From an uncultured Candidatus Peregrinibacteria bacterium (GTDB lineage Bacteria > Patescibacteriota > Gracilibacteria > Peribacterales > Peribacteraceae), in contig CALMES010000075.1 in NCBI GenBank assembly GCA_937863435.1, positions 1-42,028 of the forward strand: a stretch of 42,028 bases of DNA. The letters are read 5' to 3'. The first letter of the stretch is position 1. Every line of letters begins with the position of its first letter. Below the pieces are notes generated by a model that saw only the letters and a program-made list of their open reading frames with translations, made no database searches and was not told the origin of the DNA. Below, piece after piece: positions 23,880 to 26,151 of the stretch. A program made the position numbers and the translations under genes.

Positions 23880-24752
23880 ATGAAAGCTCATCACTCTACC
23901 GGTCTGGATCTGGCGAAAATGCTCAAAGGCGGTGTCATTATGGATGTGGTCAACGCCGAGCAGGCCAAGATTGCAGAAGATGCAGGTGCGTGCGCTGTAA
24001 TGGCGCTCGAGCGTGTGCCATCGGACATTCGTGCCCAGGGCGGAGTGGCTCGTATGAGCGATCCGGCTTTGATTGTCGGCATTCAGAAAGCTGTTTCTAT
24101 TCCAGTCATGGCCAAAGTGCGCATCGGTCACACCATGGAAGCGCGTATTCTGGAAGCACTGAAAGTCGACTTCATCGATGAGAGCGAAGTACTCACGCCA
24201 GCCGATCCATTCGACCACGTCGATAAGCGCGAATTCAAGGTGCCGTTTGTGTGCGGAGCAACCAATTTAGGCGAGGCGCTTCGTCGCATAAACGAAGGGG
24301 CAGTGATGATCCGTACGAAAGGGGAGGCGGGAACCGGCAACGTGATCGAAGCGGTGCGTCACCTCAAAATGATCAACAGCGAGATGATCGCACTCCTTAA
24401 AATGTCACCGGCAAAACTTGGTGAATACGCAAAAGCGCAGCGTGTACCATTGGCGTTGGTAAAACAAGTCCGCGAGGCACAGCGCCTGCCCGTTGTCACG
24501 TTCGTGGCCGGTGGCATAGCTACTCCTGCCGATGCTGCCCTCATGATGTCGATGGGAAGCGAAGGAGTGTTCGTCGGTTCAGGAATTTTCAAAGCCAAAG
24601 ATCCCAAAAAAATGGCCAAGGCGATTGTGGAAGCAACTGTGCACTACAAAGATCCGGCGTACGTTGCCAAAATCTCCACCGGTCTTGGAGACGCCATGGC
24701 AGGGCTCGAAATCGGCATGCTGCCAACCAAAATGCAGGAGAGAGGCTGGTAG
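23880..24752 (+). CDS. pdxS: Pyridoxal 5'-phosphate synthase lyase subunit PdxS
   Basis: 290 aa. Makes PLP from ribose-5-phosphate, glyceraldehyde-3-phosphate and ammonia supplied by PdxT. The phosphate-site and catalytic residues are present: [11 protein letters not shown], Lys79 in MAKVRIGH, and Lys147 in [13 protein letters not shown]. The [13 protein letters not shown] and [10 protein letters not shown] phosphate loops follow. It is expected to form a dodecamer. The start lies in a pyrimidine-rich leader (CTCTTTCCTC). It is followed after a 200-nt gap by pdxT and a degenerate pdxT copy. Confidence 0.97.
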
Positions 24753-24913: not shown

Positions 24914-24954
24914 GAATTCTGTATTCTCCATACTGAATTCAGTATACTTCGTAC
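24914..24954. repeat. ATTCTG/CATACT word repeat containing the pdxT promoter
   Basis: A string of the words GAATTCTGTATTC, CCATACTGAATTC and AGTATACTTCGTAC. Related strings form the gyrA terminator (8541-8583) and the leader of the oxidoreductase gene (28887-28921). Confidence 0.5.
24943..24948 (+). promoter_or_regulatory. -10 box of pdxT (TATACT, 6 nt before ATG)
   Basis: TATACT then TCGTAC then ATG 24955. This places the predicted transcription start on the A of ATG, giving a leaderless mRNA. Confidence 0.65.
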
Positions 24955-25539
24955 ATGATCATAGGAGTACTCGCATTCCAGGGTGACTTTGCAGAACATA
25001 TCGAGATCTTAACGCGCCTGAAAATCGATTGTATGGAAGTGCGTAACACCCAAGATCTCAAGCTCGTTCAAGGCCTTATAATTCCCGGTGGCGAAAGTAC
25101 GGTGATGGCGAAGTTTTTGGAATCGACCGGTGTCGGTAAAGAAATACAACGCCGTGTGCGCGCCAAAAATCATCCGCTCATTGTCTACGGAACATGTGCG
25201 GGTGCCATACTGCTAGCCAAAGAGGCGACAGGCAAAAATGCGCCAGATACATTGGGACTTTTGGATATCACCATCGAACGCAATGCCTATGGCGCCCAAA
25301 TCTATAGCTTCGAAACAAAATTACTCATTCAAGGAATCAAGCTTCCCATGACTGTCTCATTCATTCGCGCGCCGAAAATTGTGCGGGTGGGCAAGGGAAT
25401 CGAGATTCTGGCGATGTACGAAAAGTCGCCGGTACTGGTACGAAAGGGCAATGTGATGGCGGGAACCTTTCATCCGGAAGTGCGGTCGCAGACGGCTATT
25501 CATGAATTGTTTATTGAGATTGTGAAAACACTGTCTTAA
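24955..25539 (+). CDS. pdxT: Pyridoxal 5'-phosphate synthase glutaminase subunit PdxT
   Basis: 194 aa, normal length. Hydrolyses glutamine and channels ammonia to PdxS. The triad is intact: Cys81 in YGTCAGAILLA, His173 and Glu175 in GTFHPEV. The GGES oxyanion motif (IIPGGESTVM), the RNAYGAQ loop and FIRAP are also present. The start is fixed by the usual MIIGVLAFQGDF N-terminus and the TATACT box 6 nt before it. It is followed after 15 nt by its degenerate paralogue. Confidence 0.97.
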   Translation: MIIGVLAFQGDFAEHIEILTRLKIDCMEVRNTQDLKLVQGLIIPGGESTVMAKFLESTGVGKEIQRRVRAKNHPLIVYGTCAGAILLAKEATGKNAPDTLGLLDITIERNAYGAQIYSFETKLLIQGIKLPMTVSFIRAPKIVRVGKGIEILAMYEKSPVLVRKGNVMAGTFHPEVRSQTAIHELFIEIVKTLS

Positions 25540-25542
25540 TTT

Positions 25543-25548
25543 TATACT
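25543..25548 (+). promoter_or_regulatory. -10 box of the pdxT paralogue (TATACT, 6 nt before ATG)
   Basis: TATACT then TTGAAT then ATG 25555. The spacing is the same as for pdxT, so the copy seems to have its own leaderless promoter. Confidence 0.65.
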
Positions 25549-25554
25549 TTGAAT

Positions 25555-26151
25555 ATGATTATTGGTGTACTGGCAATTCAGAAAGGGTATGCAAAACACA
25601 TTAAGATGCTAAGTCGCCAAGGGTTTTTCTGTATCAAAATCAAGCATCGGGGAGATTTGGCCAATGTACAGGGTCTTGTTATACCGCACGGAAATCTTTC
25701 GACACTACTGTATCGTTTGCATGCTTTGGGCTTTGCTGATGAAATTGCCAGACGGGCGAAGCACAAGAAGCATCCGTTAGTATTATTTGGTCTTGGCTCG
25801 GGTGCGGCAGTACTTGCAAAGAAACTAATTACTGCAAGCGAGTATAAGTCGCTGGGAATTGTCGATATGGTTGTAACTGAAGGGCTATCTGCTCGATTAA
25901 AGCCCATTCAAAAAGATGTACATATCGATGGCATCATGGCTCCGATGCTTGTCACACTCTGGCCAAGTCTTGCAATCACTAGCGCAGGAAAGCATGTCGA
26001 AACTATTGCTCTCTATCAACAAAAGGAAATTGTCGGCGTGCGTAGTGATACGGTGTTTGCGACTCTTTTTGATCCTGTTGATGCATTCAACTTGCACGTG
26101 CTGTTTGGTATGACGGTTGCGATGAAAACGGATTTGGCTGATTATCTGTAG
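25555..26151 (+). CDS. PdxT-like pseudoenzyme (glutaminase triad lost)
   Basis: 198 aa and alignable to PdxT over its full length from MIIGVLAIQKGYAKHI. Every catalytic element is changed: GGES is HGNL, the nucleophile region YGTCAG is FGLGSG (Cys to Gly), RNAYGAQ is EGLSARL, FIRAP is TLWPS, and TFHPEV is TLFDPVD. The frame is intact and has its own -10 box, so this is not an obvious pseudogene. The fold is probably kept while glutamine hydrolysis is lost. Possible roles are a non-catalytic cap on PdxS, a regulator of PdxT docking, or a new binding function. An alternative TTG at 25549 would overlap the -10 box. Confidence 0.85.
   Translation: MIIGVLAIQKGYAKHIKMLSRQGFFCIKIKHRGDLANVQGLVIPHGNLSTLLYRLHALGFADEIARRAKHKKHPLVLFGLGSGAAVLAKKLITASEYKSLGIVDMVVTEGLSARLKPIQKDVHIDGIMAPMLVTLWPSLAITSAGKHVETIALYQQKEIVGVRSDTVFATLFDPVDAFNLHVLFGMTVAMKTDLADYL

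Follow-up and report, generated by a model that had tools for sequence, protein, structure and literature searches.

Organization of the pdxS-pdxT locus

What can a PdxT protein be retained for once the residues for glutamine hydrolysis are gone? As a channelled enzyme, PLP synthase has entered the textbooks, with PdxT regarded as its catalytic ammonia supplier. The question is raised by the window, the whole 42,028-nt stretch analysed, which is contig C75 in a 2.14 Mb assembly of an uncultured Candidatus Peregrinibacteria bacterium. On the forward strand, a canonical pdxS (23880..24752, 290 aa; TIGR00343 447.9 bits, NF003215 472 bits) is followed by an intact pdxT (24955..25539, 194 aa), in which Cys81, His173, Glu175, GGES, RNAYG and FIRAP are all present. 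Behind it on the same strand lies a second pdxT-like frame (25555..26151, 198 aa) that begins at ATG, has no internal stops and encodes a paralogue with a predicted PdxT fold and every glutaminase motif replaced. The opposite-strand genes downstream resemble, by eye, subunits of 2-oxoacid:ferredoxin oxidoreductase. The identical order, dcd-pdxS-pdxT-second pdxT-oxidoreductase with the last gene on the minus strand, was found in MAG JAGOTD010000003.1 of a Candidatus Peribacteraceae bacterium (contig of 272,656 bases), the sole other member of the genus among the genomes searched. Considering that the same gene occupies the same place in this sister species, its presence is not due to chance.

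In either species, TATACT precedes the ATG of each pdxT copy by exactly 6 nt (24943..24948 for pdxT and 25543..25548 for the second copy in the window). From the pdxT stop to the ATG of the second copy, the distance is 15 nt in one species and 77 nt in the other, with the spacing of TATACT unchanged. A possible -35 element of the second copy, TTGTGA, lies within the 3' end of pdxT (25520..25525, forward strand), 17 nt from the TATACT box, and the sister species has TTGGGA, also at 17 nt; both were identified by eye. The TATACT box marks a predicted leaderless-type promoter. In the window, several genes are preceded by a TATA-like -10 box at a distance of 6-10 nt from the ATG, a spacing like that of leaderless transcription, for example before 19732 (minus strand), 23207 and 34507. 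A special control by TATACT shared between the two copies was considered and rejected, since other local genes carry such boxes.

Loss of the glutaminase motifs

With Pfam SNO (PF01174, curated cut-off 27 bits), exactly two places were matched on the whole assembly, 24967-25524 (156 bits) and 25567-26079 (46 bits). The protein of the second copy passes this cut-off at 46.5 bits and that of the sister species at 39.8 bits. The second copy is below the PdxT equivalog TIGR03800, with 73.8 against a cut-off of 105.55 bits, whereas the live neighbour reaches 190.7 bits. Within the genome, the two copies share 35% identity over 175 aa (E 9e-36).

Comparing the live PdxT with the second copy, we found the substitutions G45H, E47N, S48L, T80L, C81G, A82S, R109E, N110G, H173D and E175V. 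FIRAP is changed to LWPSL and RNAYGAQ is likewise replaced. The oxyanion/glutamine motif PGGES reads PHGNL and PHGNV in the two second copies, and that of the sister species exhibits the same losses (PGGE to PHGN, TCAG to LGSG, FH to FD). The Cys-His-Glu triad, present in 31/31 other class members, is gone in both species (C81G, H173D, and E175V/F or a gap, depending on the alignment). The initial annotation, which described a full-length PdxT-like frame with changes in GGES, the nucleophile Cys, RNAYGAQ, FIRAP and HPE, was therefore right in every detail. Judging from these residues, the second copy is almost certainly dead as a glutaminase, and we infer that it would be unable to hydrolyse glutamine via the known mechanism.

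Among sites at least 90% conserved in the live PdxTs of the class, 10/43 are kept in both dead copies, compared with 22/53 among sites 60-90% conserved. From this difference, the catalytic face was specifically abandoned while structural residues were retained; structural-looking residues still present are G4, L6, H15, L41, P44, G46, G83 and I142. The residues lost are catalytic or PdxS-contacting.

Predicted fold and docking on PdxS

AlphaFold2, given the two dead and three live sequences, modelled the dead copy with a pLDDT of 85.5 and a pTM of 0.86. The solved structures nearest to the model are PdxT chains, the best being that of B. subtilis PdxT in complex with PdxS (2nv2, VIA Z 29.3). 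When the dead pair was modelled alone as a control, the model was poor (pLDDT 44.8). As the good model depends on live PdxTs in the alignment, the fold assignment rests on homology, and the dead copy very probably adopts the PdxT (class-I glutaminase, flavodoxin-like) fold.

The main rival to a re-purposed binding or regulatory protein, the reading we prefer, is that the dead copy still docks on PdxS without catalysis; it would take PdxT sites and either lower the glutamine-driven flux or stabilise the dodecamer in a PDX1.2-like manner. The gene adjoins pdxS-pdxT in both species, and its predicted fold is closest to PdxS-bound PdxT chains (2nv2, 4wxy). Inactive H-to-N PdxT mutants lead to fuller decoration of PdxS (PMC8313854, PMC11237949), and PdxT binding to PdxS is sub-stoichiometric (PMC11237949, PMC11708016), so that free PdxS sites exist. 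The contact residues of the dead copies, however, speak against such docking. In S. aureus, PdxS-PdxT contacts include E14, E47 and E112 of PdxT (PMC11237949), a numbering that we verified against the sequence of PdxT from S. aureus. E14 is K/Q in the dead pair, opposite an unchanged Lys of PdxS, E47 is N/N and E112 is Q/D, whereas in the other class members Glu occupies position 14 in 30/31 and position 47 in 31/31. The β6-β7 loop of PdxT packs against the N-terminal helix of PdxS (PMC8313854). The corresponding stretch (residues 101-120), where the RNAYGAQ loop drifts, is the least conserved part of the dead pair, with 25% identity compared with 95% in the live pair. A compensating change in PdxS of the genus was not found, 1 of 164 family-conserved sites being changed. 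Taken together, the lost E14 and E47 contacts, the drifting loop and the unaltered PdxS are evidence against canonical docking, and the earlier proposal that a dead PdxT may occupy PdxS sites is unsupported on the same grounds. As judged from the sequences, the dead copy is probably not canonically docked on PdxS, and it may dock in a changed mode; a PdxS-docked, non-catalytic partner analogous to PDX1.2 is doubtful.

Residues at the old active site

At 40 positions both dead copies are identical to each other yet unlike the live copy. These include K10, G11, H45, N47, L80, G81, S82, S138, L139 and D173 around the old active site, which might hint at a new pocket there, and much of the C-terminal helix. 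The same new residue is present at 12 of the 24 motif sites lost in both dead copies and at 20/59 sites elsewhere, which is not a significant enrichment (p 0.22, n=2 dead sequences).

The next rival is that the dead copy is a new enzyme, in which the flavodoxin-like fold would carry a new active site built from K10, H45, N47, S82 and D173. Both dead copies share these five residues, which are placed on loops of the former active site. That the superfamily is able to host new active sites is illustrated by S51 peptidases and DJ-1/PfpI proteins. However, the nucleophile position is Gly and the Ser sits one residue off the elbow. In a Pfam scan of the dead copy, SNO was the sole family above cut-off, and the Peptidase_S51 cut-off was not reached (12.1 vs 23.9 bits). 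Considering also that the enrichment of shared residues is not significant, a new enzyme seems distinctly improbable.

Maintenance of the reading frame

The dead copy of the sister species is an open frame of 198 aa with 47% identity to that in the window. Between the two species, the live PdxT is 88% identical, and most neighbours are 85-98% and a few 68-73% identical. In a codon model of the dead pair, omega = 1 was rejected (2dlnL 69), with a profile optimum of ~0.15. Because dS of the pair is saturated, we also fixed it at 1.0-1.4, the value of neighbouring genes; omega was then 0.51-0.35, which still beats omega = 1 by a 2dlnL of 31-47. The omega of live pdxT is 0.08. Identities of the dead pair at codon positions 1, 2 and 3 are 0.60, 0.68 and 0.40, respectively. 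In neutral simulations to the observed 56% nucleotide identity, a mean of 4.8 stops per copy was acquired and 0/300 runs remained stop-free.

A decaying pseudogene still open by chance would fit the very fast evolution of the dead copy in trees (2.8-3.1 changes per site on the stem and 0.9-1.7 at the tips, vs 0.06-0.08 for live PdxT tips), as well as its confinement to this genus within the family genomes searched. On the other hand, two species whose copies share 47% identity keep the frame open, omega = 1 is rejected, neutral simulations always acquired stops and the promoter box is kept; on the sister genome, omega and the simulations we rejected this reading, which is very improbable. An assembly or binning artefact, for which one might cite the 168 contigs and 5.4% contamination of the assembly, is refuted by the identical gene order on the long contig of another MAG, and its probability is practically nil.

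The initial annotation had named relatives and dN/dS as checks on the second copy. The sister species carries both copies, the dead one without frameshifts, and a dN/dS of 1 is rejected; the concern that relatives might lack the gene applies to the other genera of the family and not to the sister. With its catalytic residues lost and its frame under purifying selection, the dead copy is very probably a pseudoenzyme, and we are highly confident that it is a real, maintained gene. The open frames, omega, the simulations and the same promoter box across differing spacers suggest that it is very likely expressed and used.

Distribution and origin

Using the dead-copy protein as query, a second PdxT was not detected in the other 72 of 74 Peribacteraceae genomes searched. 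In a collection of genome contigs and in the family and class genomes, no orthologue was found besides that of the sister, and none was found in viral contigs. Matches in phage and plasmid records were 25-32% identical to the dead copy, and the annotated ones are named PdxT. When a profile of the dead pair was compared with a phylum sample, the other matches scored 50-140 bits, as live PdxTs do, and no further match reached the level of the dead pair. Weak SNO matches (20-38 bits) in relatives were rejected as PdxT copies; those inspected were HisH- or PurQ-like.

In trees, the dead pair groups with the live PdxT of the genus with a support of 85/79, or 88/48 without long rows. This placement, not strongly supported and on a long branch, is consistent with, and does not prove, a genus-level tandem duplicate. 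In the scenario we propose, pdxT would have been duplicated in tandem on the stem leading to this genus of Peribacteraceae, after which the second copy would have lost glutaminase activity, changed rapidly and then been retained as an expressed, folded protein.

Diverged PdxT-like genes elsewhere in the class

In a class-level relative, G056, the only PdxT is dead (GGDN, TGSS, YPE; L029 1492-2046, minus strand, corresponding to G056:C13:56972-57523). On the same contig, ~16 kb away, lies a degenerate 215-aa PdxS-like protein (SOR_SNZ 37 bits; L065 2213-2860, minus strand), in which, by eye, VMAK seems to have its catalytic Lys replaced and IMDV its Asp. G056 is a second case, apparently independent, in which subunits of PLP synthase have lost their active sites. 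From the same order, G046, read with genetic code 25 (TGA = Gly), has a weakly PdxT-like frame of 198 aa between grpE-like and pilus-like genes (L104 579-1175, plus strand); it is 30% identical to the dead PdxT of G056, with FGTSS, GQSCEF and SPE replacing the motifs. Two longer plus-strand proteins, of 388 aa in G023 (L073 4796-5962) and 595 aa in G022 (L067 284-2071), have a diverged, fusion-like PdxT domain at the C-terminus, where PGGW replaces PGGES and the elbow Cys is retained. The N-terminal part of the G023 protein is PdxS-like by eye. Ordinary PdxS and PdxT are both present in G022 and both missing from G023. Judging from these sequences, PdxT has probably decayed or been re-used more than once in this class. 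Two records filed as viral, IMGVR_UViG_3300038738_000024 (L074) and OR844998.1 (L107), contain ordinary bacterial pdxS-pdxT loci, and the former also has dacA- and serS-like genes; given these loci, both records are probably host DNA.

Proposed function

Taken all together, a case slightly better than even can be made from the sequences that the dead copy is a retained pseudo-glutaminase with the PdxT fold, re-purposed as a likely non-catalytic binding or regulatory protein. Taken on its own, a regulatory or binding role is favoured over a new enzyme. In the proposed mechanism of this re-purposed protein, canonical docking on the N-terminal helix of PdxS would be weakened or lost. The old active-site cavity would be rebuilt by residues common to both dead copies (K10-G11, H45-G46-N47, L80-G81-S82-G83, S138-L139-A140 and D173) and, together with the conserved C-terminal helix, would bind another ligand or partner. 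Such a non-catalytic regulator could plausibly still be linked to PLP or glutamine status, because the dead copy follows pdxS-pdxT and has a leaderless-type promoter to itself; the conserved adjacency fits a PdxS-linked role equally well. More tentatively, and with less than even confidence, the free-standing, genus-specific dead PdxT would sense a metabolite in its rebuilt cavity and regulate vitamin-B6 synthesis, either by a non-canonical PdxS/PdxT contact or elsewhere, as the first glutaminase-side pseudoenzyme of PLP synthase.

Comparison with known systems

Like PdxT (Pdx2, YaaE, SNO), the dead copy has full-length homology, the predicted fold and an operon-type position behind pdxS; unlike PdxT, it is devoid of the Cys-His-Glu triad, the oxyanion/glutamine motif, RNAYGxQ, FIRAP and the conserved PdxS contacts. 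In vertebrate CPS1, whose glutaminase domain has no Cys, and in herpesvirus vGATs, a catalytically dead class-I glutaminase domain serves to regulate another GATase or synthase. There too the class-I GATase fold outlives the loss of the nucleophile; those proteins are fused domains or viral and belong to other subfamilies, whereas the dead copy is a free-standing tandem PdxT. A comparative study of PLP genes describes genomes in which PdxT or PdxS stands alone (PMC9997740), and we found no dead PdxT paralogue described there. In the open-access literature searched we found no description of a dead PdxT, in agreement with the initial annotation, which knew of no such partner.

A pseudoenzyme of PLP synthase is already known on the synthase side. 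The plant PDX1.2, a paralogue of the synthase subunit PDX1, co-assembles with PDX1.3 (PMC6829848). As with PDX1.2, an active subunit of PLP synthase is accompanied by a retained non-catalytic paralogue; in contrast to the plant protein, the dead PdxT belongs to a bacterium and to the glutaminase side. What is new is a probable pseudoenzyme on the PdxT side. A PdxT maintained without its chemistry raises the question of what the PdxT fold can do beyond glutamine hydrolysis. It is an odd gene to retain in a small candidate-phylum genome, one that can be tested with recombinant proteins, and it presents a natural counterpart to PDX1.2.
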